Below are positions 7,314-53,364 of a DNA stretch of 64,000 nucleotides, one piece after another. How positions within the stretch are numbered: position 1 is the stretch's first letter; every line of letters starts with the position of its first letter. Under the pieces are notes generated by a model that worked only from the letters and a program-made list of their open reading frames with translations, was not told the DNA's origin and ran no database searches. This stretch comes from Mesorhizobium sp. B2-1-1 (GTDB lineage: Bacteria > Pseudomonadota > Alphaproteobacteria > Rhizobiales > Rhizobiaceae). Position numbers and translations under genes: made by a program. The stretch spans positions 1,364,001-1,428,000 of the forward strand of contig NZ_CP083954.1 in the NCBI RefSeq assembly GCF_006442975.2. The letters run 5' to 3'.

Positions 7314-7883
7314 ATGAAAGCCCAACGAACGAACTCGCGCGAGAGGATTCTCGCTGCGGCGGCGGACGTCGCACGGGAATCCGGTCCCGGTAGCCTGTCC
7401 CTGGATGCCGTCGCCAGCCGCGCCGGCGTATCAAAGGGCGGACTGCTCTACAATTTCCCGACCAAGGCCAAATTGATGCAGGGCCTGGTCGAAGGCTATC
7501 TGCGCGAATTCGAGCAGGCGCTAGAGACCGCCAGCAGCAACGACAATGGCGCAAATCCGCTCGCCGTCTACATCAGGCTTTCGGCCAAGGATTGCGAGGA
7601 CAAGCAGCCATCGGCGTCGTGGATATTTTCGGCGATTGCCGAGGATCCGGACTTCATGTCGCCGATAAAGACGTTCAAGCGACAACTCTTCCAACGACTG
7701 AAGAGCGAGACGCCGGATCTCAAGTCGCTGCTGGTCTGCTATCTCGCCATCGAGGGCCTGCGCAGCATGAACCTGTTCGACGCGGACGTGCTTTCCCCAG
7801 ACGAGCGGCAATTGCTGGTGTCGTCGCTGCTGGAAATCGCCGGGTCGCCCGATGTTGGCCCTGCCCGGGCCAAGCGACCCTGA
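7314..7883 (+). CDS. TetR/AcrR family repressor, probable regulator of the RND pump
   Basis: A 189-residue protein with an N-terminal TetR helix-turn-helix (about 8-50: RERILAAAADVARE, then DAVASRAGVSKGGLLYNF) and a helical ligand-binding domain. In this family drug or phenolic ligands release the repressor from DNA. The ATG at 7314 is preceded by GGGAGG at good distance; an in-frame ATG four codons earlier has no ribosome site. It is divergent from the RND operon with a palindromic operator between, the classic arrangement for a local efflux repressor. Confidence 0.9.
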   Translation: MKAQRTNSRERILAAAADVARESGPGSLSLDAVASRAGVSKGGLLYNFPTKAKLMQGLVEGYLREFEQALETASSNDNGANPLAVYIRLSAKDCEDKQPSASWIFSAIAEDPDFMSPIKTFKRQLFQRLKSETPDLKSLLVCYLAIEGLRSMNLFDADVLSPDERQLLVSSLLEIAGSPDVGPARAKRP

Positions 7884-9479: not shown

Positions 9480-10808
9480 ATGGCTTCCAATGTTTCGTTG
9501 ACGGGCCTTGCCCGTGATCTCGAGGTGCGGGCCAAGTCGGGCAAGCCAATCCGCATCGGCTTGATCGGTTCGGGCGAGATGGGAACCGACATCGTCACCC
9601 GCGTCGCCCATATGTCCGGCATCGAGATCGGCGCCATTTCCGAGCTGAACCTGCCCGCCGCCAGCAAGGCCGTGGATATCGCCTTCCAGGAAACCGGGCA
9701 TGCGCGCGAAGTGTCGAACGCCTCGGCGATGACGGCCGCCATGGAGGCCGGCAAGGTGGCGGTCACCAACGACGCCAGCCTGGTCATCAACAATGACCTG
9801 ATCGACGTCGTCATCGACGCCACCGGCGTTCCCGCCGTCGGCGCCGAGATCGGCTTGCGCGCCATGGAGCACGGCAAGCACCTGGTGATGATGAATGTCG
9901 AGGCCGACGTCACCATCGGCGCCTATCTCAAGAGCGAGGCCGACCGGCTCGGCGTCACCTATTCGCTGGGCGCCGGCGACGAGCCGTCTTCCTGCATGGA
10001 GCTTATCGAATTCGTCTCGGCGATGGGCCATCCGATCGTCGCCGCCGGCAAGGGCAAGAACAATCCGCTCAACATCGACGCCACGCCGCCCGACTATGAA
10101 GAGGAAGCCAAGCGCCGGCACATGAATGTGCGTATGCTGGTCGAGTTCGTCGACGGCTCCAAGACCATGGTCGAGATGGCGGCGATCGCCAACGCCACCG
10201 GGCTGGTGCCCGACAAGGCCGGCATGCATGGTCCGGCGGCGACGCTCGGCGAATTGTCCAAGGTGCTGGTGCCGCAGAAGGACGGCGGCGTGCTGTCGAA
10301 GGTCGGCGTCGTCGACTATTCGATCGGCAAGGGTGTCGCGCCCGGCGTGTTCGTCGTCGCCGACATGTCGCATCCGCGCATTTCGGAGCGCATGGAAGAT
10401 TTGAAGATGGGCAAGGGCCCGTACTTCACCTTCCATCGGCCCTACCATTTGACCTCGCTCGAAGTGCCCCTGACCTGCGCCCGCGTCGTGCTCTACGGCA
10501 AGGCCGACATGGTGCCGCTGGCAAAGCCGGTGGCCGAAGTCGCAGCCGTGGCCAAGAAGGACATGAAGCCGGGCGAGAAGCTCGATGCGATCGGCGAATA
10601 TTGCTACCGCGCCTGGATCATGACGGCGCCGGAAGCACATGCCGCCAGGGCCATTCCCTGCGGTCTGCTGCAAGGCGGTTCGGTGACGGCGCCGATCAAG
10701 AAGGGCGAGCTCATCACCTACGCCAATGCCGCCCCGGCTCCCGGCTCCAAGATAGCCGAACTGCGCGCGCGCCAGGACAAGCTCGTCTACGGAACCGTGG
10801 AGGTGTGA
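9480..10808 (+). CDS. DXR-II (DRL)-like NAD(P)-dependent oxidoreductase with SAF domain
   Basis: A 442-residue protein with a Rossmann N-terminus of homoserine-dehydrogenase type (IRIGLIGSGEMGTDIVTRV, about 28-46), a catalytic middle domain and a C-terminal SAF domain (AIPCGLLQGGSVTAPIKKGELIT). This architecture is that of the DRL family, whose Brucella member is an alternative 1-deoxyxylulose 5-phosphate reductoisomerase; many family members have other, unknown substrates, and such proteins are often mislabelled FlgA because of the SAF domain. Here the gene is two bases upstream of a TPP-dependent dehydrogenase operon, which points to a catabolic role rather than isoprenoid synthesis. ATG at 9480 or 9471 follows GGGAGGA; the former gives better spacing. 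Family call firm, substrate unknown. Confidence 0.75.
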   Translation: MASNVSLTGLARDLEVRAKSGKPIRIGLIGSGEMGTDIVTRVAHMSGIEIGAISELNLPAASKAVDIAFQETGHAREVSNASAMTAAMEAGKVAVTNDASLVINNDLIDVVIDATGVPAVGAEIGLRAMEHGKHLVMMNVEADVTIGAYLKSEADRLGVTYSLGAGDEPSSCMELIEFVSAMGHPIVAAGKGKNNPLNIDATPPDYEEEAKRRHMNVRMLVEFVDGSKTMVEMAAIANATGLVPDKAGMHGPAATLGELSKVLVPQKDGGVLSKVGVVDYSIGKGVAPGVFVVADMSHPRISERMEDLKMGKGPYFTFHRPYHLTSLEVPLTCARVVLYGKADMVPLAKPVAEVAAVAKKDMKPGEKLDAIGEYCYRAWIMTAPEAHAARAIPCGLLQGGSVTAPIKKGELITYANAAPAPGSKIAELRARQDKLVYGTVEV

Positions 10809-42179: not shown

Positions 42180-42200
42180 GGCAGGCTGTCAGACAGACAA

Positions 42201-42217
42201 GCCAGCCGCTCGCTGGC
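42201..42217 (+). terminator. Possible weak terminator after the cupin gene
   Basis: GCCAGC-CGCTC-GCTGGC followed by CTTTGATACCTTT. The stem is short and the T-run interrupted. The position, 20 bases after the stop, is suitable. Confidence 0.4.
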
Positions 42218-42420
42218 CTTTGATACCTTTCGTCAATCCCGGCCATCCTCGCATGTCCACGCAACTGGCGGGGCCGTGACTGGCGCCCGGTTGGAGCGAA
42301 CGGGACCAGAATGCCGGCAGGGCGAACGGTGTCCGCCTTGCTCATCGTGCCATCGCGTGAGACCCCACGGCGAGCAACCCCGCTGTTGGAGCACGCGGAA
42401 CAACAGGATCCGTGGTCATT

Positions 42421-42636
42421 TCATTGTTTAGTGAGGAAGGCCTTGCAAGCCGGCGTGACTTCGCTGAGGTGCTGTTTAAGGCAGCCTTGCGCCTTAACTT
42501 CGTTGTCCATGTGGCACACCCGCTTGGCGTCCGCTCTACAGGGTGTCTTGTAGGCATCTTTCGCTAAAGCGGCGTCGGTGAGAAAAAGCGATATACAAGC
42601 CAAAAGCGCCAGTTGGAGTGACTTTCGATTCCGCAT
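42421..42636 (-). CDS. Small secreted Cys-rich repeat protein
   Basis: A 71-residue protein with a clear signal peptide (MRNRKSLQLALLACISLF, cleavage near ALA-KD at 25) and one Cys-rich unit: C-R-x-D-x-x-R-x-C, then C-L-K-Q-H and V-T-P-A-C-K-x-F. This matches the GLG1-like cysteine-rich repeat (Cys_rich_FGFR family). Four cysteines probably form two disulfides in the periplasm. The same motif ends the poly-glycine protein at 44892. It is the first gene of the A+T-richer accessory zone. Function unknown. Confidence 0.75.
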   Translation of the reverse strand: MRNRKSLQLALLACISLFLTDAALAKDAYKTPCRADAKRVCHMDNEVKAQGCLKQHLSEVTPACKAFLTKQ

Positions 42637-43116
42637 GGTTGTGTTCCCATCGTGAGTGCAGAAGCGCGGTCTTTATATGCGTTAATGCTAAAGAATGGGA
42701 ATCCACCATAAGGAGGAGGGTGCGAGCACCCGCGCAAAATCGGATGAGCAATGTAGCGCAAAACACGGCTTACATAAGCGCAGTGCTGACCAACTGTCTC
42801 GCGCACGGCTCAATCAAAAGCGCTAATATAATCTCCGGTTTGTCGAGCTTGTTTCCAATTTTGTGTTGGAGTAACCCAATATCGCTTGGGAACACGAAAT
42901 GGAGAGAGTCGTTAGGCTGCGTGCAGGGTAGGTTTTTTCCTGCCATTTTTCTGAAACACGGAATTGTTCCTTGGCAATGTCGGGGGGAAGACTCTCCGTC
43001 TTGAATAAAATAACGAAGCCGTGATTACGGGCGTTTTATTCCTGATTTGTCGATGACGCGAAGAATATTCGATCCGTAATCGAGCAGTTTTCATATACTT
43101 ATAAATGAGGGGCGAG
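42637..43116. other. A+T-richer intergenic stretch, about 480 bases
   Basis: No supported gene. The sequence is clearly more A+T-rich than the flanking sugar cluster and marks the start of the accessory zone. It should hold the divergent promoters of the Cys-rich gene and the alpha/beta hydrolase. A small hairpin (AAGAC-TCTCC-GTCTT, about 42987-43001) lies in it. Confidence 0.5.
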
Positions 43117-44694
43117 ATGTCTACCGTGTTTAGACGCGCGTACATCAAACCAGGTTGGTGTTTTCTTCTCGTGGTCACGTCGGTTGCGTTCCTCATTTGC
43201 CTGGGGGGTGGGGAGCTCACTGCGGGTGAGTTCAAGAAAACCAGCTGTTGGTTCGAAATTCCCCGGGATCGGGCAATGACGTGTGGGACCGTGAATGTTC
43301 CAGAAAATCGAAAGAAGACGGGCGGTACCGAGGTCGTCCTGTCCGTGGTCGTATTCGAACCGGACCGCGAACGGCACGAACCGGTGGTGTTTCTCACAGG
43401 AGGACCGGGGCAGCCTACCGACATTGCCAATAGCGACGACATCGATGGATGGTGGGAATTCATCGGCGCCCAGAGTTGGATGATCGGACGCCGAGTAATC
43501 GTCGCTGATCAGCGGGGTATCGGAAAGTCCGCTCCCGCCTTGGACTGTTCTCAATATTTCAAGCCCGATCATTGGAACGCCATTCTCTCGAGCGTTGAGG
43601 TCGAAACCACCTTTAGCAAGCTCAAAAAAGATGAAGTTCTTGCATGCAGGACGGCGTTGATCGCAAAGGGCATTGATCTTGATGCCTACAACACTGAGGA
43701 GAATGCGGAGGATATTGATGACCTTCGGAAGGCTCTCGGGATAGAAAAGTGGGTTCTCTATGGCGTCTCGTATGGCACCAGGCTTGCACTCGAAGTGATG
43801 AACCAGCACCCCGAAGGGGTATCGGCGAGTATACTGGATTCAGTTGTTCCTCTGGACATCAATTACCTGAACGAAGATGGGCCGAATCTCGACCGATCGT
43901 TAAAATTGCTAGAGCGAGACTGTGAGGCAGCGAACAGATGCATGAATGGGATATCCAATGCTGTTCAGCTTATTGCAAGACAGCTGGATCGGCAGCCTTT
44001 GCTCTTGCGCAGCACAGATAAAGAGGCGCGCTACACATATGTCTCCGGGGCAGATTTCCTCGAGCTTATATTCGGCATTTTATACGATCGCGATGCGCTC
44101 CTGACCCTGCCGGAGCTGATCGAGAGGACATACAAACAGGATTTCAGACCGCTGGCGGAGATACTTTTCGATGCTGACGACCTGGAGATCTCCCAAGGTA
44201 TGGACTTCTCTGTAAGTTGTTCCGACAGCGATCTCCCCGATCTGAATGGCAAGCAGGACAAATACTGGTCGAAATGGGTTGAGCTGAACGACTACTCCTG
44301 GGCATGCCCTCTTTGGATGCTTGAGAACGGGCCAGCATCGCAGGTGCAGCCGCGCCGCACTGACATACCCACTCTTCTGTTGTCGGGAGAATATGATCCA
44401 GCAACGCCGACAGCATGGGCGGACCACGCGGCGAAGACCCTTCCTTTCGGCCAGGTGGTGGTCTTTCGGGGGATCGGACACGATGTCATAGATTCCGATC
44501 CGTGCGGGTCGAAAGTAGTTGCTGATTTCCTTGCAAACCCCAAGCTCAAGTTGAAGACTGAATGTATCGGTGAGATGGGGGCCCCGCAATTTCCAAGCCC
44601 GCCAAAGGAACTGTGGTCGGGAGCGGAGGCACTACACTCTATATCAGCAAATCGCTCAAGGCAGGATAGGTTGAGATTTCGATTTGGGCACTGA
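43117..44694 (+). CDS. Secreted alpha/beta-hydrolase, tripeptidyl-aminopeptidase-like
   Basis: A 525-residue protein with an N-terminal hydrophobic segment (about 14-35, signal or anchor) and an alpha/beta-hydrolase fold of the proline-iminopeptidase/TAP type. It has VVFLTGGPGQP as oxyanion loop, VIVADQRGIGKSAP, the nucleophile elbow GVSYGTRLAL, a cap domain, LLLSGEYDPATP with the catalytic Asp, and FRGIGHDV with the His. It probably cleaves N-terminal residues from peptides in the periplasm, or hydrolyses an ester. Eight or so cysteines suggest disulfides. ATG 43117 follows GAGGGGCGAG; another ATG four codons earlier is possible. Codon use is less GC-biased than in the sugar cluster. Confidence 0.8.
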   Translation: MSTVFRRAYIKPGWCFLLVVTSVAFLICLGGGELTAGEFKKTSCWFEIPRDRAMTCGTVNVPENRKKTGGTEVVLSVVVFEPDRERHEPVVFLTGGPGQPTDIANSDDIDGWWEFIGAQSWMIGRRVIVADQRGIGKSAPALDCSQYFKPDHWNAILSSVEVETTFSKLKKDEVLACRTALIAKGIDLDAYNTEENAEDIDDLRKALGIEKWVLYGVSYGTRLALEVMNQHPEGVSASILDSVVPLDINYLNEDGPNLDRSLKLLERDCEAANRCMNGISNAVQLIARQLDRQPLLLRSTDKEARYTYVSGADFLELIFGILYDRDALLTLPELIERTYKQDFRPLAEILFDADDLEISQGMDFSVSCSDSDLPDLNGKQDKYWSKWVELNDYSWACPLWMLENGPASQVQPRRTDIPTLLLSGEYDPATPTAWADHAAKTLPFGQVVVFRGIGHDVIDSDPCGSKVVADFLANPKLKLKTECIGEMGAPQFPSPPKELWSGAEALHSISANRSRQDRLRFRFGH

Positions 44695-44891
44695 AATTCC
44701 TCTTAGCCAAAATTGTAAAATCCGATATTTTGCTGCCGATGAAGTTAAGCTAAAGCGGAACTCGTAATCAATTAAACACTACGGTAGCATCGCTTAAGGA
44801 CCCCTCTCGTCTTGCGGGTGGAAGTCGCGTGCGTGTCGCATTTCGATTATTAAATTCCGAAGTTTCACAGAAATTGTAGGAGGATCGAACA

Positions 44892-45359
44892 GTGTTTACG
44901 TCTCGTCGTGTATTGCTTTCGGCCTTGGGTGCAAGCATCGCATACGCCGCCTTTGGTGGCATCGCGCGTGCGAAGGGCGGTGGCGGGGGAGGAGGAGGAG
45001 GAGGAGGAGGAGGAGGAGGAGGTGGCGGCGGAGGAGGCGGGGGCGGAGGCGGCAAGGGTGGGAGCGGCGGCGGAGGCGGAGGCGGCAAGGGTGGGGGCGG
45101 CGGCAAGGGTGGGGGCAAGGGTGGAAGCAAGGGGTCAAGTCGTGACGGTGCGATGGAGATCGAAACCGGGCTGATACCCAGTTCAGTCAACGCAACAAAC
45201 CCTACGCAGGTAAGATCTTTCAAAATTTTCGAAGGCAAGGGATGTCGCCGCGACTACGCACGGTTTTGCCCGACGAAACCGATGGGTAAATGCGACCTTG
45301 AAAGCCAGATCGAACGGCTTTCACCTGCGTGCAGAGATTTCGTCGAGAAGCATCGGTGA
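44892..45359 (+). CDS. Exported poly-glycine protein with C-terminal Cys-rich motif
   Basis: A 155-residue protein in three parts. First, an export signal with a twin-arginine-like motif (TSRRVLLSA) ending near ARA-KG (27). Second, a glycine tract of about 55 residues (29-84), first pure Gly, then Gly with regular Lys. Third, a tail with C-R-x-D-x-x-R-x-C and C-x7-LSPAC-R-x-F, the same GLG1-like Cys motif as the protein at 42421. GTG 44892 is preceded by TAGGAGGA. The Gly part begins with eleven GGA codons in a row. Possibly a surface or wall-associated protein; function unknown. Confidence 0.75.
   Translation: MFTSRRVLLSALGASIAYAAFGGIARAKGGGGGGGGGGGGGGGGGGGGGGGGGGKGGSGGGGGGGKGGGGGKGGGKGGSKGSSRDGAMEIETGLIPSSVNATNPTQVRSFKIFEGKGCRRDYARFCPTKPMGKCDLESQIERLSPACRDFVEKHR
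44988..45020 (+). repeat. (GGA)11 trinucleotide repeat in the poly-glycine gene
   Basis: Eleven perfect GGA units code for Gly-33 to Gly-43. Further degenerate GGN/AAGGGTGGG repeats follow to about 45130. The unit is a multiple of three, so slippage changes the length of the glycine tract but keeps the frame. Confidence 0.9.
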
Positions 45360-45562
45360 AGTCGCGTGGCTATTATGCTAATGTAGCTATCTCTCATTCG
45401 ATGCGTCAGTCTGACGATAGGTCCTCAGCTGACCGTCTGTCGAGCATGGCCGCGGGAAATAAACATCCCTGGCCGGAGCCGGTTGCGGGGCCTGTAGCTG
45501 GAGGGCCGTCGACGGGCCATGAGGAGAAAAGGGCGAGAAACCGGGATCGCGACGCAAATCCT

Positions 45563-46702
45563 ATGTCCGACAATCGGAACATTGCCGCTGCGATCGAGGC
45601 TTGCTACGACGCCGCGTTCGAGTTTAGGCAGTGGCCCGCAGCGCTTCAAATGCTGGCCCACTCCCTAGGAGCCACAAGTTGCGTTATCCGCACCTGCGAT
45701 CCAACTCACCCGTTTCGTAGCGATCAGCGATCGCCGACCGCGCTCAGACCCGATTCGACCGAACATGCCGAATTCGCCGCCCTTTGGATCGAAAGAATCG
45801 AAGGTGCTCCCGATCCGCATGAACGTAGACCGCGCAAGAGGTTGGCAAAACTGACAGACAGCTTCGTTGTCGAGGATGAGATCACCACTCGTGATGAGCG
45901 CGAGGTTCTCCCTTATTACCAAGAAATCGCGCGTCCAGGCGACCGGGAATGGTGGGCTGCAATAGACTTCATGGTGAAGGATCGAAGGTGGATGCTCTCG
46001 ATGTTTCGTGACGCTCATAAGGGGCCATTCTACCGGAATGAAGCCGAGGATTTCTTGGCGATCGCTCCGTCGATGGTTCGCATCATCAGTGCTGCGGAAA
46101 AGGTTTGGGAAACGGCAGTCGAACCGAACCTGGCCATTCTGGATCGGATGGGAAGCGCAGCGCTGTTGCTGAATTGCCGAGGCCGCGTCACCCGCTACAA
46201 TAAACACGCGGAAGCTCTGCTTGGTACTGGCCTCGTTATCCACGGTGGTCGTCTCCGGGCGGCAGATCGGCCCAGTGATTCACGCTTGCAGAAATTGATC
46301 GCAGGCGTGGTCAGCCAATGCGGCGACTTGAGCGACGGGGAGCCCGTTTTGATTGCTCGCGAGGGTTCGCCATGGCTTCTTGCTGAAGCCATTCCGATGA
46401 CCTCGTTCGTCCATGACCTCTTTAACGGCGGAGACGCGCTCCTCTATTTTACCGATCTTGTGGCCGAAAGGGCGCTACCCAAGCAACTGATAAGGCACGC
46501 CTTTCAACTAACAGCAGCCGAAACGCGGCTGGCCTGCCGCCTTGCCGATGGCCGAGGTATCGGCGCGGCAAGCTCTGCCCTGGGAATTGGCCGTGAAACC
46601 GCCAGAACCCAGCTCCGTGCAATATTCTCGAAAACAAGCACCGGAAGTCAGGCGGAACTCGCGAAGCTCTTGTCCCGATACCAAGGGTCCTCCACGCATT
46701 GA
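45563..46702 (+). CDS. LuxR-type helix-turn-helix transcriptional regulator
   Basis: A 379-residue protein. The C-terminal 65 residues form a LuxR/GerE-like DNA-binding domain (FQLTAAETRLACRLADGRGI, ASSALGIGRETARTQLRAIFSKT). The middle (about 190-300) resembles a PAS-like sensor with ALLLNCRGRVTRYNKHAEALL; the N-terminal part is unassigned. This layout is frequent in rhizobia and ligands are mostly unknown. ATG 45563 is the chosen start, at the first part that looks like folded protein (NIAAAIEACYDAAFEF); it lacks a clear ribosome site, and an ATG at 45446 is possible. The gene follows the poly-Gly gene on the same strand. Confidence 0.78.
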   Translation: MSDNRNIAAAIEACYDAAFEFRQWPAALQMLAHSLGATSCVIRTCDPTHPFRSDQRSPTALRPDSTEHAEFAALWIERIEGAPDPHERRPRKRLAKLTDSFVVEDEITTRDEREVLPYYQEIARPGDREWWAAIDFMVKDRRWMLSMFRDAHKGPFYRNEAEDFLAIAPSMVRIISAAEKVWETAVEPNLAILDRMGSAALLLNCRGRVTRYNKHAEALLGTGLVIHGGRLRAADRPSDSRLQKLIAGVVSQCGDLSDGEPVLIAREGSPWLLAEAIPMTSFVHDLFNGGDALLYFTDLVAERALPKQLIRHAFQLTAAETRLACRLADGRGIGAASSALGIGRETARTQLRAIFSKTSTGSQAELAKLLSRYQGSSTH

Positions 46703-47070
46703 AGTCGCGGTGTCACCCGTTCGGGTGAAGCCCTGACGGTCCAAGGGTTGCACTCTGCGCTGAATCGGGGCCGTGGCACTTCACAACAACAGGCGCCGGT
46801 CTCGATCCGATACGTCTCAAGCGGGGCGGCCGGTCAGACGATATTTGGTTTTTGCAACGGTGCGTGCCTGAATCCCTCTGATGTCCGACTAGTGCCTTCG
46901 GGCCGAAGAGGTGAGCAGAAAACATCGCGTCCGCTATTACATTAGCAGTAGGAAATATATTGCCAAACGGCGGCGCGAGGCGGATCATCAACGCCCGCAC
47001 CTCCGATCGAGAATTGGAAAGACAGGGCTGATCGGAGCTTGCCGATCGTACCGAACGCCAGGAGGTTCAG
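46703..47070. other. Intergenic stretch, about 370 bases
   Basis: No supported gene. A perfect hairpin TCACCCG-TT-CGGGTGA lies at about 46710-46725, soon after the regulator stop; it lacks a T-run but may end transcription or mark processing. The rest is unremarkable. CCAGGAGG precedes the next gene's start. Confidence 0.5.
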
Positions 47071-48852
47071 ATGAAACTGCGTGCTTGCCTGCCAAGTGCA
47101 GGATGGACAGCTATTGCCTTAATGAGTTTCGGCACAGGTGCTGCCATTGCTTATGCCGCGGACAGTCCGTTGCAGTCGCAGCTTGCGGCGCCAAGAGTAT
47201 CGTTGCCGGGGGAACTCGACATCACACACTGCGTCGCTCTGGCCGCTGCCGGCCAATCACTGGCCCCGCAAGACTTGAAGGCCTACGAGGAGGCCCAGCC
47301 GCCATTGTGGGATGACCTGGGCTCCCTGAGCTATCCGATCAGCACAAAGAGCGCCGATGCCCAAAAATACTTTGACCAGGGGCTGCGGTTCGCCACCAAC
47401 TTCAATCACGCGGAGGCGCGACGCGCCTTCCGCAAGGCACAAAGCCTCGATCCCGACTGTGCGATGTGCTTCCTCGGCGAGGCACTGGTCCTGGGCCCGA
47501 ACATCAACGTGCCGATGGATCCCACCGCAAATGCACCAGCGATCACTGCTCTTCGAAAGGCGCAGGCGCTTTCATCCGGTGCCACCGAGAAGGAGCGGGG
47601 ACTGATCGAGGCGGTCGCCACGCGGTATTCCGAAGATCCCAAGGCCGATCGAAACACCCTGAACGCCGCCTTCGCCGATGCAACTGCGGCGCTTTCCGAC
47701 AAATATCCTGACGATCTCGAACTCGCTGTGCTGGCCGCAGAGGCCGGCATGGACACGCAGCCTTGGGACTATTGGCAGCCGGGCGGCAAGGAACCCAAGG
47801 GCCGCACCGCCGACATCCAGAGGCGGCTGGAAGGCGTTCTCGCCAGGAAGCCCGACAATCCGATGGCGATTCACCTCTACATTCATCTTGTTGAGGCCTC
47901 GGATCGTCCGGAGCGCGCCGAGCCCTACGCGGACCGGCTAGCAGCGCTGATGCCGGGGGCCGGACACATCGTCCATATGCCGAGCCACATCTACTATCGC
48001 GTCGGCCGCTACACGGATTCGCTGAAGTCCAACGAAGCTGCCTCGAAAGTGGACGAGACCTATCTCGCCGAAACCGGCGCTACCGGTGTCTATCCGCTCG
48101 GCTACTATTCCCACAACGTGCACTTCGTATTGGTTTCGGCCCAGCTCCTCGGTGACTCGAAGACGGTGCTTGCAGAGGCTGAGAAGCTGGACAAGTTTCT
48201 GACTAACGAGGTGGCCACGGCAATACCGATCGTGCAGCCGGTGAAGGCAGCTCCGTATTTCGCCTGGGCGCAATATGCCGAACCCGATGCGATCCTGGCT
48301 AAGGCCGAGCCGGCCGGCGCGCCGCCTTACATCACATCGATGTGGCACTATGCGCGCGGCGTCGCCCTGGCCGAGAAGAAGGACGCCTCGGGCGCGCGAG
48401 TCGAGGCGGACGCCATCCACAAGATCGCTCAGGAAACCGACTGGTCGGTGCACGATGCCTGGGGAATCCCGGCATTGTCGGTCCTGCAAGTGGCCGAAGA
48501 TGTCGTACGTGCCCGCGCTGCGCAGGCCGAGAATGACGTCGGCGGCTCGATAGCCTTCTGGAAGAAAGCGGTCGAAACGGAGGACACGATCCCCTACATG
48601 GAGCCTCCGTACTGGTATTATCCCGTGCGGCAGTCCCTCGGTGCCGCCCTCCTCAAGAACGGTCAGCCGGCGGACGCGGCGAAGGAGTTTGTGGCGGCGC
48701 TCCACCGCGCACGCAGCAGCGCCTGGGCACTGTTCGGGCTGCAGCAGGCGGCGGAAGCCCAAGGCGATACTGCCGCCGCAACGAAAGCCGCGGACGAACT
48801 TTCCAAAGCCTGGAAGGGCGATCCGGGCATGCTGACGCTGGAACGGCTCTGA
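47071..48852 (+). CDS. Exported TPR-repeat protein
   Basis: A 593-residue protein with a signal peptide (about 1-30, cleavage near AYA-AD) and many tetratricopeptide-like helical pairs, e.g. AQKYFDQGLRFATNFNHAEARRAFRKA (quoted in parts: KYFDQGLRFATNFNHAEA) and SLDPDCAMCFLGEALVLG. Unusual for TPR proteins, the centre has HLYIHLVEAS and HMPSHIYYRVGRY, where clustered histidines could bind metal or haem. The family occurs widely as a TPR domain protein of unknown function. It is probably periplasmic. Codon use is again GC-rich, unlike the neighbours at 43-45 kb. Confidence 0.8.
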   Translation: MKLRACLPSAGWTAIALMSFGTGAAIAYAADSPLQSQLAAPRVSLPGELDITHCVALAAAGQSLAPQDLKAYEEAQPPLWDDLGSLSYPISTKSADAQKYFDQGLRFATNFNHAEARRAFRKAQSLDPDCAMCFLGEALVLGPNINVPMDPTANAPAITALRKAQALSSGATEKERGLIEAVATRYSEDPKADRNTLNAAFADATAALSDKYPDDLELAVLAAEAGMDTQPWDYWQPGGKEPKGRTADIQRRLEGVLARKPDNPMAIHLYIHLVEASDRPERAEPYADRLAALMPGAGHIVHMPSHIYYRVGRYTDSLKSNEAASKVDETYLAETGATGVYPLGYYSHNVHFVLVSAQLLGDSKTVLAEAEKLDKFLTNEVATAIPIVQPVKAAPYFAWAQYAEPDAILAKAEPAGAPPYITSMWHYARGVALAEKKDASGARVEADAIHKIAQETDWSVHDAWGIPALSVLQVAEDVVRARAAQAENDVGGSIAFWKKAVETEDTIPYMEPPYWYYPVRQSLGAALLKNGQPADAAKEFVAALHRARSSAWALFGLQQAAEAQGDTAAATKAADELSKAWKGDPGMLTLERL

Positions 48853-49499
48853 ACCTCATCCCGGACGGGACCGCTGCGGTCCGTCGACCGGGCTCCAACC
48901 AATCAACCAATTTCCGATTTGTCGGAACGTCTGCAAGCGCTTTTCTGACGTTATTCGAACGGTAGAAATCCGCATGCAGGTTCCGTACAGATGACCGATG
49001 CGACCCCGGTGATCGGCTCTGGTTTCAGTCCGATTCAGGTCCGACAGTATCCGGCTTAGCAGCAAAACGTGGTGATCCCGACAGTCCATGGCGAACCAGT
49101 CTCCGTTTGAGAATTCCCTGATAACGGGCAAAAACTGGGAGTTCGCGAGAAACGAGCGCTTTGCATGGGGCGGAAAATCAATATTGCATTGCGATGTCAG
49201 CTACTTAGCGGAACATTCCCTGCGCGGTGGATCAGGAAAATTCGCCCCGGACATCAGGAAAATCACGCAGCCAGGGATGATTCATCAGGGAAACCGGCTG
49301 TCGTTGCGCGGGATCTGATTGCGAGTTCTTGGGATCGAATTGTCGTAGTCCGGGAACGCCTTGCTGTATCGCAGGGAACGTAGGCGCGATTGCAATTGTG
49401 AAGTGATAAGGGGTGGCAACGATTTGACGCTTCCCGAAATTTAAATGCGACAGGCTGAGATCTGACTGTCGGATTGGAAGTCGGACGGCAGGAAAAAGA
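48853..49499. other. Non-coding stretch with an att remnant
   Basis: About 650 bases without an intact gene. It contains a 15-bp copy of the tRNA-Arg 3' end at 49070-49084. A 76-codon frame starting at 49088 just after it has no family resemblance and is not annotated. Sequence composition is mixed. Confidence 0.5.
49070..49084 (-). other. Short tRNA-Arg 3'-end copy, probable old att site
   Basis: TGGTGATCCCGACAG is identical to the CCA end and adjoining acceptor/T-stem bases of the tRNA-Arg gene at 53288-53302 and to the start of the larger copy at 50646. Fifteen identical bases in the same orientation, 4.2 kb away, are very unlikely by chance. It fits the distal attachment site of an earlier integration, or the conserved part of one. 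Confidence 0.6.
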
Positions 49500-49720
49500 G
49501 GGGCGTCTTCGCCCAAGCGTTCCATTGAAAGTCGTCGGCTGGACCTCGCGTGCGCATGCATATCGGTCGCGGAGAACATCGTACAGCTGTGCAAGCCATC
49601 GGCACACAATAGCGTTGTTGGGGCGTCTCGGGATCAAGGCAGACTTTGCATGGCTCTGGCCATCGACGAGCCGTTCGCAAATCTGGTCGGTTATCTCCGC
49701 AGAACACTTGGTCGGGCCAT
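49500..49720 (-). pseudogene. Phage terminase small subunit-like remnant
   Basis: Read on the - strand from ATG 49720, pieces in alternating frames match phage terminase small-subunit/HTH proteins: MARP, then KCSAEITDQICERLVDGQS, then VCLDPETPQQR, then VCRWLAQLYDVLRDRYACAREVQ (in two parts), then ADDF after a further shift. At least three frameshifts separate them and the C-terminal part is unrecognisable. The order is right and each joint needs only one or two bases, so this is a decayed gene and not chance. It shows a phage contribution to segment A. Confidence 0.6.
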
Positions 49721-49831
49721 AGATGTCCTTTTGCGGTCTGGGCGCATGCTTTCATTTTTTGGGCAGCGCCGCCCTACTTGCTCGGCTTCTGCATTGGTGA
49801 TCTTCTGTCGAAAAATAATGGAGGAATGACC

Positions 49832-50371
49832 ATGTCAGACGCGAGACAAGAACCGTCCCAGTCGACTCAACAAACAGAGGAACAGAAGAGAAGTGCAGGT
49901 ACTCGCGGAAAATTTTCCGATATTTCTATCAGCGAGCTGAGCTTAGATGAGGCCATAGCACTCAAAGCCTTGCGAAAGTTCGACTTCGAATTCGTCGACT
50001 ACAATGTCTACGACACGCTTAGTAATTTCGGTGGCGGGACGCTCGTGCTAGTTGAGACTTTTCGGCAACCGGAGAACGAAGTTGGACGAGTGGCTCATGA
50101 TTATCAAGTGCTTGTAAAAAATGGAAAGGGAATAGTCTACAACGACTACACTCAAGCCTTGCGTCTCGGCTCAGAGCGGGCGGATTTTCTGTCTCGACTG
50201 GTTTCCCCGGATACAGTTCTCGCGCTTCTGACCCTTGTTTTGGTGGCAGCGTTCTTGGCGTTCTGGGGGGTTTTCAAAGAAAAGACCCCGGAAGTGTTGG
50301 GTGTCGCTCTCACAACGGTCATTGGCTTTTGGTTTGGGCGTCAATCGAGGACAACGTCAAACACAAAATGA
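49832..50371 (+). CDS. Small membrane protein of unknown function
   Basis: A 179-residue protein: a polar, Gln/Glu/Ser-rich start (1-30), a soluble domain (about 35-130) with KALRKFDFEFVDYNVYD and HDYQVLVKNGKGIVY, and two C-terminal membrane helices (about 133-152 LALLTLVLVAAFLAFWG and 159-172). The soluble part faces the cytoplasm if the inside-positive rule holds. No family is recognised. ATG 49832 has GGAGG seven bases upstream; an ATG two codons earlier is too close to it. The gene is A+T-richer than core genes and lies in island segment A, so a role in phage or plasmid conflict is conceivable but unproven. Confidence 0.7.
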   Translation: MSDARQEPSQSTQQTEEQKRSAGTRGKFSDISISELSLDEAIALKALRKFDFEFVDYNVYDTLSNFGGGTLVLVETFRQPENEVGRVAHDYQVLVKNGKGIVYNDYTQALRLGSERADFLSRLVSPDTVLALLTLVLVAAFLAFWGVFKEKTPEVLGVALTTVIGFWFGRQSRTTSNTK

Positions 50372-50468
50372 CCAGATGCAATGCGCCTCACTTTCGGTGG
50401 TGTGACTAGCTGAAAAGCGGGGCAAGACATGGGTAGTATGGCACTCACTAACTCCTTGGAGGAGGACA

Positions 50469-50651
50469 ATGGCATCTCGGGTGACGATCGATGAACAATT
50501 GCATGACACAAATGGCGGTGGGACCAGGCGCGATCCTGCACTGAGCCGTCAATTCACTGTAGCCTGCCCGCTTGGCACTTGTGTAACGTTCAAGTCGACT
50601 ATGTATTCATTGACGAACAGGTACTTGTATTTCCTAGTGAATTTATGGTGA
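50469..50651 (+). CDS. Possible small protein running into the att site
   Basis: A 60-codon frame from ATG 50469 with an excellent GGAGGAGG ribosome site five bases upstream. The product is polar with two Cys and no recognised family. Its last codons and TGA stop lie within the start of the 46-bp att repeat, so the end was probably created by integration and the true protein was longer. It may be a truncated gene rather than a functional one. Confidence 0.35.
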   Translation: MASRVTIDEQLHDTNGGGTRRDPALSRQFTVACPLGTCVTFKSTMYSLTNRYLYFLVNLW

Positions 50652-50691
50652 TCCCGACAGGAATCGAACCTGTGACCTACAGATTAGGAAT
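50646..50691 (-). other. attL: 46-bp copy of the tRNA-Arg 3' end
   Basis: Positions 50646-50691 are identical to 53288-53333, which is the tRNA-Arg gene from its CCA end through the T-arm and variable loop to the anticodon loop. Sequence identity stops sharply on both sides. This is the usual core for tyrosine-integrase elements at tRNA genes. The copy lacks the 5' half and cannot make a tRNA. Confidence 0.85.
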
Positions 50692-50745
50692 ATGATTCGC
50701 GCCAGAAAAACGCAATAAACCAATTGCTTAATGAGCACCTTTTTT

Positions 50746-50765
50746 ATTCTACGGGATTCTACGGA
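50746..50765. repeat. Tandem ATTCTACGG motifs near attL (possible integrase arm sites)
   Basis: ATTCTACGG occurs at 50746-50754 and again at 50756-50764, some 55 bases inside the left att copy. The same nonamer occurs twice as a palindrome near the right end (53159-53182), with a close variant at 53223. The paired placement at both island ends fits recombinase arm-binding sites. Confidence 0.6.
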
Positions 50766-51215
50766 ATTGTAGCGTTGTACTAACCAGCGCTGTCCAGATT
50801 ATCTGGACGTCAATCGCCTATCACGCTCAATGAACGGGGCTCAGGGATAAGACCATGAAGCGCAGCGAGCCGCTGCGAGGAAGGCGAAGGTCGACGCGGG
50901 AGCGCCGGCTAAACCCTCACCGCCATCGCAGACGAGATGAACGATAATGACGAGCCAAGACTTCACGGCGAGGCCGGTCGAGCGCCACAGCCAGTGAGGG
51001 CTTGGCGAGGTCAGAAGGCGATCTTTCTTCGCAACGGCCTCATGTTGACCAATTGATCCGTCGGGAAACGAGCTAGTGGTCAAAACTTGACGCTTGATAC
51101 CCGAAACGGAACACCGCTGCCGACCTCCTTACGGTCGTTCGGGATCCTTCTTTCGCCTACTACAACTGCCACTGATCAGTCAGCCGCCGCTGGCAGGGAT
51201 GCGGAAAACGAACGC

Positions 51216-52769
51216 ATGGTAAAAGTCCAAGCCGCTATCTACAGACTCTCCCTATCCCATCCCGTTTTCCGATGCCATATAGGCGATGAAATAACGGGGG
51301 CAACTTTGAAAATAAACGAACTAAAAGGGCGCTCTGCCCATCTCACTAACCTGAACAACATCAACGTAATTATGGGTCGCAACGGCGCGGGAAAGAGCCG
51401 CTTCCTTCGTGACATCGAGGAAGCAACCAGCCAGAATAAGCAACTCTTTTATGTTCGCTATGTCAGCCCTGAACGGGCTGGGTCGTTCAAGCGCGATGGT
51501 GCCGTCCTCACAAATATGAGTAATGACCCCACTTGGCTGCGGCAAGTACGGGCAGTTAATCAGGCCAACAACTTCAAAGCCGCATCGGCGATGCTGTTCC
51601 GCGAAGCCGAGACGCTTTATCTACGTCGCCTAGCCAGCACTCCAGAAATCCGAATGGACCCCACGCGCAACTTCCAGACAGATCGGCTGAGTAAGGTAAA
51701 TCAGCTGCTCACCAATATCTCGCTTGAGATGGGTAACGCCGATTTCGAGTTTCGTTCGCTGGCCGATGGTCAGCTAGTAATCCCAGATCAAATCAGCAGC
51801 GGCGAATCGGAAGCCGTAGCTCTGGCTTCCGAGATTCTCTATTTCTTTGATACGATAGACCCTGCCAAGACGAATATACTGCTCCTTGATGAGCCGGACG
51901 TGCACCTTCACCCCGATCTTCAGGCACGGCTGGGTAAACTGATCATCGCCATGCTGGACGAGTTCAAGAGCTACGCGGAAAGCATTGCTGTATGCCTCTC
52001 CACGCATAGCAGCCCGCTGGTCTGTTCTCTCGCGGATTCGCAATATGTTTCGATCGGCACCAAGAGCTTCGCGGTCGATACGGTTGAACTCAAACCGACC
52101 AGCGCTGAGCTTCGCAAGGTTGCCCCGTTCTTCGGCCACCCCCTTTCACTTTCGCTAAGCGAAGACGCGGCGTTGATCCTCGAAGGCGAGGACGACGAAC
52201 GCGTTTGGCAGCAGGCTGCGCGAACGTCGCAGGGCCGGATCAAGGTCTTTCCCGTGCTGGCCGGCAGCGTAGACCAGCAGGGCGAACTAGAGACCTTCTG
52301 CGTCAATCTGCTCGATACGCTCTACGACAACCCGGTCGCCTTTTCCCTTCGCGACGGCGACGGCGTGGTTGATCAGCCGCTCCAACATCGCCCACCTATC
52401 AAGCGCTACCGCCTGCAATGCTATGCAATTGAAAACGCCCTTTTGACTGACCCCTGCCTTGCCGTGATGGGCACGACCTGGGAGGGTTTTGTCGCTGCGG
52501 CAACGAAATGGGAGGCTGAAAATCAGGGACACGCAGATAGAACGCTCATTAACGAGCTTGCCGAGTCCAATGATCGGCTGCGGCATAAGAAAATCAAGAA
52601 GGTCCGCCAGCTCGTCTGTGCGGTGCTCGAGTGCAAGAAGCCTTGGGAGGTCGTGGTTGGTCAGGCGATCGGAGCGCTAACGAACGAGGATCTCGCAAAT
52701 TCGAACATGCTGATTGATTTCCTCGGGGCGGAAATGGTCAGCGACATCATCTTCAGGAACGGGGCATGA
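51216..52769 (+). CDS. ABC-ATPase/TOPRIM fusion, OLD- or PARIS-like candidate defence nuclease
   Basis: A 517-residue protein. N-terminal ABC/SMC-type ATPase: Walker A GRNGAGKS (54-61), signature SSGES (194-198), Walker B ILLLDEPDVHLHP (221-233, catalytic E226) and H-loop STHSS (262-266). From about 315 a TOPRIM-like domain follows: E323 in LILEGEDD, D380-G-D382 in LRDGDG and YAIENALL (403-410), an arrangement of OLD nucleases and of DUF4435 proteins such as PARIS AriB. Such proteins restrict phage or trigger abortive infection. It is the only intact gene in the att-bounded segment B and has no UvrD-like partner. ATG 51216 is the chosen start; a TTG 43 codons upstream gives a leader without similarity. 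Family firm, defence role inferred. Confidence 0.82.
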   Translation: MVKVQAAIYRLSLSHPVFRCHIGDEITGATLKINELKGRSAHLTNLNNINVIMGRNGAGKSRFLRDIEEATSQNKQLFYVRYVSPERAGSFKRDGAVLTNMSNDPTWLRQVRAVNQANNFKAASAMLFREAETLYLRRLASTPEIRMDPTRNFQTDRLSKVNQLLTNISLEMGNADFEFRSLADGQLVIPDQISSGESEAVALASEILYFFDTIDPAKTNILLLDEPDVHLHPDLQARLGKLIIAMLDEFKSYAESIAVCLSTHSSPLVCSLADSQYVSIGTKSFAVDTVELKPTSAELRKVAPFFGHPLSLSLSEDAALILEGEDDERVWQQAARTSQGRIKVFPVLAGSVDQQGELETFCVNLLDTLYDNPVAFSLRDGDGVVDQPLQHRPPIKRYRLQCYAIENALLTDPCLAVMGTTWEGFVAAATKWEAENQGHADRTLINELAESNDRLRHKKIKKVRQLVCAVLECKKPWEVVVGQAIGALTNEDLANSNMLIDFLGAEMVSDIIFRNGA

Positions 52770-53287
52770 GCAACATTGAATAGCGCGAGACCTCGATCTT
52801 AGCTGCTGTCAAGGATCAGCCAGTGTTGGCTCTCCGCCGCCTGTCCCTACCCGGCGCAATTCGTTGAAGAGATAAACGGCAGCTTTCCCGGCGTAACGGC
52901 CCGAAACTTGCGGGTCTGCTCCCACGATGAGCGGGCCTACGGCTCCGGAACCAAGCGTCAGAGTTTGACCACTAGCGACTTGCAAAGGGTCTTCGCACTG
53001 GCTGGGCTAATGGTGACGACGCTGGAGCGGGGGAAGGACGCCGTGGTGTCGACTTCGTTGCGTCTCGTGCGAAGTGCCTCGTCAGCGGGACATCGTCGAT
53101 GACCGGTCGAGACATGCAACTGAAGCTGTCAAACCATGTCAAGCAGTTCTGCGCAAATCCGTAGAATGGGTTCATTCTACGGATTCTTGGTCATGGAAAG
53201 TGACGAGATTCACGACTATTCGCGTAGAATGGCGATCGAGCCTTTCGGAGCCGATCACCTAAGTATCTCATCTTGCTTAGTTTTTAG
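52770..53287. other. Right end of the island, gene-free, about 520 bases
   Basis: No supported gene. It holds the palindromic integrase-site-like repeat at 53156-53185 and the end of the element. Short frames here show no family resemblance. An integrase gene would be expected in this place or at the left end and is absent. Confidence 0.6.
53156..53185. repeat. Perfect 13-bp palindrome near the right island end
   Basis: AATCCGTAGAATG (53156-53168) and CATTCTACGGATT (53173-53185) with a 4-base loop. Each arm contains the nonamer ATTCTACGG seen in tandem near attL. A third related site (GCGTAGAAT) is at 53222-53230. The set lies 60-130 bases inside the right att copy. Confidence 0.65.
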
Positions 53288-53364
53288 TGGTGATCCCGAC
53301 AGGAATCGAACCTGTGACCTACAGATTAGGAATCTGCCGCTCTATCCTACTGAGCTACGGGACC
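53288..53364 (-). tRNA. tRNA-Arg (anticodon CCT)
   Basis: A complete 77-base tRNA with encoded CCA. The acceptor stem GGTCCCG pairs with CGGGATC (one G-U), discriminator A; D-arm TAGCTCAGTAGGATAGAGC; anticodon stem CAGAT/ATCTG with loop TTCCTAA, anticodon CCT, which reads AGG; T-arm ACAGGTTCGATTCCTGT. It is the integration target: the 46 bases at its 3' side are repeated at 50646, and the gene was restored by the inserted element. Confidence 0.95.

Follow-up and report, generated by a model that had tools for sequence, protein, structure and literature searches.

A solitary ATPase-TOPRIM gene in a tRNA-Arg islet of Mesorhizobium, best read as a short PARIS-like defence candidate and apparently the passenger of a CTAG-ended unit

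A stretch of 64,000 nucleotides from the genome of Mesorhizobium sp. B2-1-1 (6.18 Mb in 2 contigs; contig NZ_CP083954.1, positions 1,364,001 to 1,428,000), referred to here as the window, contains at 50646-53336 a small islet with a solitary gene for an ABC ATPase fused to a DUF4435/AriB-like TOPRIM domain (51306-52769, plus strand). A reading made from the letters of the window alone (the sequence-only reading) had proposed this islet, and its limits were confirmed. About 2.6 kb lie between two copies of the tRNA-Arg 3′ end, at 50646-50694 and 53288-53336, which share 48 of 49 nt (98%); the first 46 nt are the perfect duplication reported earlier. A 43-nt piece of this outer direct repeat occurs at only two sites in the window, where 100 shuffles gave a chance expectation of 0. 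The left copy, the outer end of the islet, is partial; the right one forms the 3′ part of a complete minus-strand tRNA-Arg(cct) gene (53288-53364; Rfam tRNA, 71 bits), the target gene of the islet. A single long plus-strand open reading frame (ORF) lies inside, ending at 52769. Because no other ORF in the ORF list that is wholly within the islet exceeds 121 aa, the islet is described, as it had been before, as carrying one intact gene and no integrase. Its G+C content is about 0.52-0.60, compared with 0.58-0.70 further right. The earlier description of the island as minimal has to be modified, since a pair of inner inverted repeats (51073-51125 and 52913-52975), which had been overlooked, encloses the gene within the islet; a smaller transposon-like unit seems to carry the gene as its passenger.

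The length of the protein also had to be revised. The sequence-only reading assigned it 517 residues, but most relatives align from residue ~27-31 of that version, most of those listed are ~465-497 aa long, and the codon aligned with TTG 51306 is TTG in seven of the eight loci compared (CTT in L009; L numbers denote loci and G numbers genomes). For these reasons the protein most likely has 487 aa and starts at TTG 51306, about 30 residues later. A GGGGG stretch precedes the start codon in four sequences, those of the window, Methylobacterium (L002), Rhodoplanes (L003) and L073. The gene is under purifying selection, with ratios of nonsynonymous to synonymous substitution rates (dN/dS) of 0.09-0.13 in five comparisons; in three, dS was saturated. 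Between genera, DNA similarity goes beyond the gene by a few tens of bases at most, extending over 51268-52784 with Methylobacterium and over 51279-52773 with Rhodoplanes.

The catalytic residues were analysed in an alignment of 38 sequences that are 35-90% identical to the window protein. Invariant positions comprise G24, N26, G27, G29, K30 and S31 of Walker A (GRNGAGKS, residues 24-31, 51375-51398), the whole ABC signature SSGES (S164-S168, 51795-51809), D195 and E196 at the end of Walker B (51888-51893), and H234. In the C-terminal part, the acidic TOPRIM motif EGEDD (residues 293-297, 52182-52196), with E293, is also invariant and is aligned with EGEDS of an AriAB protein, as are D350 and D352 of the motif DGD (residues 350-352, 52353-52361), which is aligned with the DGD of AriAB. 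The ATPase and TOPRIM residues singled out earlier are therefore present and invariant, with their numbering shifted by -30, and the fusion of both domains in one short chain is borne out by profile and structure comparisons.

On these sequence comparisons, the gene product is best read as a short, divergent single-chain AriAB, the fused form of the PARIS proteins AriA and AriB. In Pfam, the whole protein matches AAA_15 and AAA_21 above the cut-off and DUF4435 weakly (0.17); with the C-terminus alone the DUF4435 value becomes 0.025-0.03, and 15 of 17 family members match this domain at E ≤ 0.1 (best 8.8e-7). PADLOC assigns the C-terminus to AriB (5.2e-4), and a profile alignment to an AriAB protein spans both domains. 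The PADLOC AriAB model is matched by all 38 members, a count that does not discriminate because at least 24 other PADLOC models match all 38 too; the protein has many ATPase-driven PADLOC matches. The discriminating evidence is that from the C-terminus (AriB at 5.2e-4, DUF4435) together with the two-domain AriAB profile alignment. With the predicted structural model, VIA-align ranks AriB first for the C-terminal domain (Z 8.8, against 6.2 for OLD); that other families are missing from its lists does not count against them. The TOPRIM fold proposed for the C-terminus is supported by this predicted model, which is closest to the TOPRIM domains of AriB and OLD. The suggestion that the system might be unnamed does not stand, given that PMC9122126 already describes fused AriAB proteins; most likely this "mini-PARIS" is a new variant of a kind already known. 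DUF4435 is also mentioned in PMC9009780 and PMC10221251. A literature search by title and start of abstract found no work on this subfamily, with partial journal coverage, so that absence proves little.

Several results weigh against this assignment. The window protein alone scores 14.5 bits for DUF4435, below the Pfam cut-off of 27, and its best PADLOC match is PDC-M01A (6.8e-18), on the ATPase stretch. The AriAB model PDLC02981 gives 57.4 bits, a value between the two score thresholds, 80 and 20, that PMC9122126 publishes for fused AriAB; PDLC02982 is not among the PADLOC matches listed for the protein. A sequence profile of the C-terminus matches no nuclease in PDB. In Foldseek, the whole model has GajA and retron Eco8 at the top and AriA at rank 44; for the C-terminal domain an OLD TOPRIM leads (E 7.7e-3), followed by AriB (E 0.022), with none at ≤0.001. 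Finally, several loci have housekeeping-looking neighbours rather than defence genes, as judged by eye with no family search.

The first alternative is that the gene encodes a stand-alone class 1 OLD-type defence nuclease, with the same order of ATPase and TOPRIM but with DNA instead of RNA as target. Class 1 OLD proteins are described as single-gene systems in PMC10568477, the family profile has matches to GajA and OLD too, and in Foldseek an OLD TOPRIM leads for the C-terminal domain as GajA does for the whole model. The higher VIA-align score of AriB and the DUF4435/AriB assignments of Pfam and PADLOC point the other way, and the listed chains of OLD (512) and GajA (548-626) are longer than that of the window; this alternative is unlikely. 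Membership in the IbfA/HEC-04 group, a single-gene ABC ATPase-TOPRIM defence whose IbfA has the same architecture, a similar length (518 aa) and a phage interference published in PMC12111858, has very little probability. BLASTP against IbfA of plasmid R64 gave 24% identity over 160 aa, in the ATPase only, and the profile alignment ends at residue 245, before the TOPRIM part; IbfA itself matches PADLOC HEC-04 at 9.1e-42, a model that is not among the 25 best listed for the window protein. Gabija was rejected as well, there being no UvrD/PcrA/Rep-like helicase partner: the islet has no second gene-sized ORF and no partner is shared among 20 loci, in agreement with the sequence-only reading.

Relatives of the preferred AriAB-like protein are widespread but patchy. 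Of 7996 scored candidates, 895 proteins match at E ≤ 0.001; the 120 relatives listed are 68-98% identical, those named belong to Proteobacteria, and Mesorhizobium opportunistum WSM2075 has a near-identical protein (98%). Within the genus the gene is found in 2 of 146 genomes (E ≤ 1e-20), both times in the same islet at the same tRNA gene. A family-level sample of 297 genomes contains 17 that match at E ≤ 0.001, including the window's own; the other 16 consist of one match of 31% identity over most of the length (G053) and 15 that are short or weak. In E. coli, 26 of 5426 genomes carry the gene, all on the chromosome. A phage home was discarded, no match being found in 50,697 phage records at E ≤ 1e-10, and so was a plasmid home, with one plasmid-collection match at E ≤ 1e-20, in a 4.9 Mb record.

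The genomic settings are diverse. In the three of the 26 E. coli matches whose context was read (H1, H7 and H10), the gene follows yfgI, and an integrase-core fragment lies next to it together with a response-regulator gene; guaA comes next in two and phage genes in the third; K-12 has 92 bp between yfgI and guaA at the corresponding place. The guaA-side site in E. coli seems to take in more than one element. In Vreelandella (L004) the gene likewise adjoins guaA. Two side observations concern the E. coli islet: phage genes occur directly beyond it on the guaA side in strain CU532-9 (L109, 5927-9408), and at L020 (15927-16697) its second gene has a response-regulator receiver domain (Pfam 1.4e-7), preceded by a part that by eye looks membrane-spanning. 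A distant relative in Salinisphaera shabanensis (L013, 163-9318) is one cassette in an array with 10 copies of a 30-nt core, repeats that we take to be attC-like, and in Halomonas (L012) a protein near-identical to it by eye lies ~1.7 kb from an ORF resembling, also by eye, an integron integrase. The gene of Massilia agilis (L010) is flanked, alone, by a 25-nt direct repeat (92%; 7597-7621 and 9828-9851) with an integrase-like ORF, judged by eye, just outside it, and is perhaps another single-gene islet. What look by eye like insertion elements interrupt the gene in Sphingobium (L008) and Sphingopyxis (L011). The gene has spread laterally and occurs in several settings, namely a tRNA-Arg islet, the guaA site and an integron-like array.

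A search for neighbours recurring across 20 loci rejected a conserved partner gene: none exceeded ~30% identity except guaA and guaB, and besides these just three weak pairs at 29-30% were found. ORFs were picked by length in this test, and a short real gene beneath a spurious long ORF could escape it. Because no neighbour other than guaA and guaB recurs above that level, the gene probably acts, and is selected, alone, and a mobile solitary gene of this type is plausible as a stand-alone defence gene. The same contexts bear on a second alternative, a housekeeping or regulatory ATPase, for repair or the cell cycle, that happens to be mobile. Its position alone between core-looking genes in several loci (by eye) and the strong purifying selection are in line with such a role, which PMC12796447 proposes for the archaeal OLD-class ATPase Cran1; its occurrence in so few genomes of the genus and of E. 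coli, and in an islet, an integron-like array and a transposon-like unit, argues against it, and this alternative appears improbable. A third alternative regards the gene as a selfish stabiliser, a single-chain toxin-antitoxin-like gene that holds its carrier element and defends only as a side effect. Several kinds of small mobile units carry the gene, and AriA has been deposited as 'AriA antitoxin', but no separate antitoxin exists here and deletion of ariA or ariB is reported as not toxic in PMC9122126; this explanation is very unlikely.

A short single-chain, PARIS-like antiphage defence is, taken as a whole, the reading we consider probable, with reservations. The support in hand consists of both domains, the invariant catalytic residues, and nearest relatives found through profiles and with one of the two structure aligners, to which purifying selection, solitary occurrence and lateral spread are added. 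In PARIS, according to PMC12409363, phage proteins such as Ocr are detected by AriA, which then allows AriB to cleave tRNA-Lys; trigger-induced release and tRNA cleavage are published there for AriB of E. coli B185, and the substitution E26A abolishes cutting. By analogy, E293 is likely the counterpart of AriB E26. We infer the antiphage role, the trigger sensing, the coupling and the substrate of the window protein. Its N-terminal AriA-like ABC ATPase would sense a phage product, ATP binding or hydrolysis would free or activate the C-terminal AriB-like TOPRIM nuclease, and this would cut host RNA, most likely tRNA, causing growth arrest and stopping the infection. tRNA as the substrate is a more tentative proposal, which we doubt slightly more than we believe. 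The gene would travel alone, in a CTAG-ended unit without transposase inside a tRNA-Arg islet without an integrase-sized ORF.

This nested cassette is more surprising than the gene itself. The inner unit (51073-52975) has CTAG at both ends. The left end begins with CTAG (51073-51076), followed by the inverted repeat TGGTCAAAACTTGACGCTTG and subterminal sequence up to 51125; the right end, from 52913, comprises subterminal sequence, an inverted repeat ending in TTTGACCA and CTAG (52972-52975). On either side, a left (50695-51072) and a right backbone (52976-53287), with no intact gene seen in either, complete the islet and are common to two other genomes. In G334 the islet is complete and lies at the corresponding tRNA gene, with 97% identity over 50645-53019, ~100 nt additional in the right backbone and a different sequence left of the outer repeat. 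G415 shares the outer repeats and the two backbones, again at this tRNA, but has 835 nt of other DNA between them, and its CTAG ends have both decayed. The cargo there is a 106-codon open frame rich in hydrophobic residues (L095, 3787-4104) that has no confident family, all Pfam matches being below the cut-off and PADLOC giving none at E ≤ 0.001. No empty site was seen for the window's own unit. Three further candidates in the islet were tried and dropped: an integrase remnant in the backbone (a recombinase-tail-like ORF, by eye, in G415, has no such Pfam match), a structured RNA (left backbone, z -1.5; Rfam at gathering scores gives tRNA alone) and a promoter (1 site found against 1.4 expected). 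Beside the islet, ~8.4 kb of the window (42187-50645, from a cupin-like gene to the islet) are missing in G415, where the cupin-like gene is conserved ~0.8 kb from the outer repeat; this segment, with ORFs of 529, 457 and 593 aa and no third copy of the outer repeat, looks like a second accreted insertion.

The ends of the window unit match sequences elsewhere in the genus; the window's genome contains this pair alone. A 26-nt end pattern (≤3 mismatches) has 92 matches spread over 32 of 99 genomes, and its reversed control has 0. Among neighbouring pairs within 10 kb, 20 of 23 point inward, spanning 0.55-7.9 kb. CTAG-ended units elsewhere in the genus include L102 (1210-5901), L144 (91-2901), L096, L097 and L140-L150. 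Eleven further units were fetched, and Pfam was applied to one protein from each of 10, L148 being set aside. Their cargo comprises hydrolases, cyclases, an acetyltransferase, DUF1254/DUF1214 and a DUF5677 protein, with CsgG below the cut-off in one protein and no match for two; no transposase family appeared among these 10 proteins. In one unit (L143, 337-3633, in G382), a 1099-aa protein has no Pfam or PADLOC match at E ≤ 0.001.

Empty sites were compared at two places. At the first, of nine loci compared, seven do not show both flanks; G348 is filled, and G407 (L116, flanks 74-79% identical) lacks the unit and has a single CTAG where G348 has two. The unit is absent from G320 (L117) as well, but the sequence there is CTGA and other extra DNA lies nearby. 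At the second, of five loci compared, G302 is filled, and the unit is missing from G329 and G317 (flanks 94-97%), where CTAG again occurs once instead of twice; the rest are two loci from G332 (filled) and a rearranged one. These empty sites indicate that insertion of the sibling units duplicates 4 bp, CTAG. The left flank of L096 (400-1036, G333) is unfit for the test because it is itself a dispersed repeat, matched in 59 of 61 genomes of the genus, in many at 20-36 places. At the second site, G332 and G302 share the same flanks, a left end of 102 nt (100% identical) and a right end of 104 nt (96%), and the cargo of G332 has no match to that of G302 at E ≤ 1e-4. This difference parallels that in the tRNA-Arg islet, G000 and G334 against G415. 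A transposon-based cassette economy in Mesorhizobium may be envisaged, in which units with near-constant CTAG inverted-repeat ends (~50-100 bp) and no transposase would carry complete, unrelated genes, one or a few per unit, duplicate CTAG (4 bp) on insertion and exchange their cargo in place; this is a tentative proposal, about which doubt prevails. A search by title and abstract start found no literature on CTAG-ended passenger units in Mesorhizobium, with partial journal coverage, so that absence proves little. If the proposal is true, the tRNA-Arg islet is one docking place, occupied by mini-PARIS in two species and in a third by a small hydrophobic ORF, and defence genes change hands much as integron cassettes do, though through another mechanism.

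If the gene defends, a compact PARIS-like system would have sensor and nuclease in 487 residues and one gene, across Proteobacteria, and a single chain would give access to both sensing and killing. A review (PMC10568477) asks if one ATPase-TOPRIM protein is enough on its own to defend broadly, a question to which this gene is relevant. As for the nested vehicle, it points to a device for gene exchange that is not the integron.

The comparison with known systems concerns both vehicle and protein. Mobile insertion cassettes are defined by inverted-repeat ends, a passenger gene and the lack of a transposase, all features of the window unit; in contrast to them, no autonomous element with these ends was found (the ends were searched in this genus only), and one and the same site holds different cargo between near-constant ends. 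Gene cassettes of integrons are likewise a single-gene mobile quantum, and the Salinisphaera relative lies between attC-like repeats, whereas the window gene has no such repeats around it. Gabija GajA combines an ABC ATPase with TOPRIM, but its chain is longer and the window gene has no adjoining GajB helicase gene. IbfA/HEC-04 shares the single-gene ABC ATPase-TOPRIM arrangement, with similarity seen in the ATPase only. Class 1 OLD proteins (P2 Old, TsOLD) are also single-gene, ABC ATPase then TOPRIM, and rank first in Foldseek for the C-terminal domain; the window chain is shorter, and its TOPRIM fits AriB better by VIA-align and family profiles. PARIS is nearest by C-terminal profile matches and VIA-align, whereas Foldseek places GajA/OLD first. 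The window protein has 487 aa against 570 and 694 positions in the PADLOC AriAB models, and none of the PADLOC models shown fits it closely. PARIS AriAB nevertheless can be a single gene, is the best VIA-align match for both halves, and has the complete AriA-type ABC ATPase motifs followed by the DUF4435/AriB TOPRIM domain in one chain, with the same acidic motifs, as present here.

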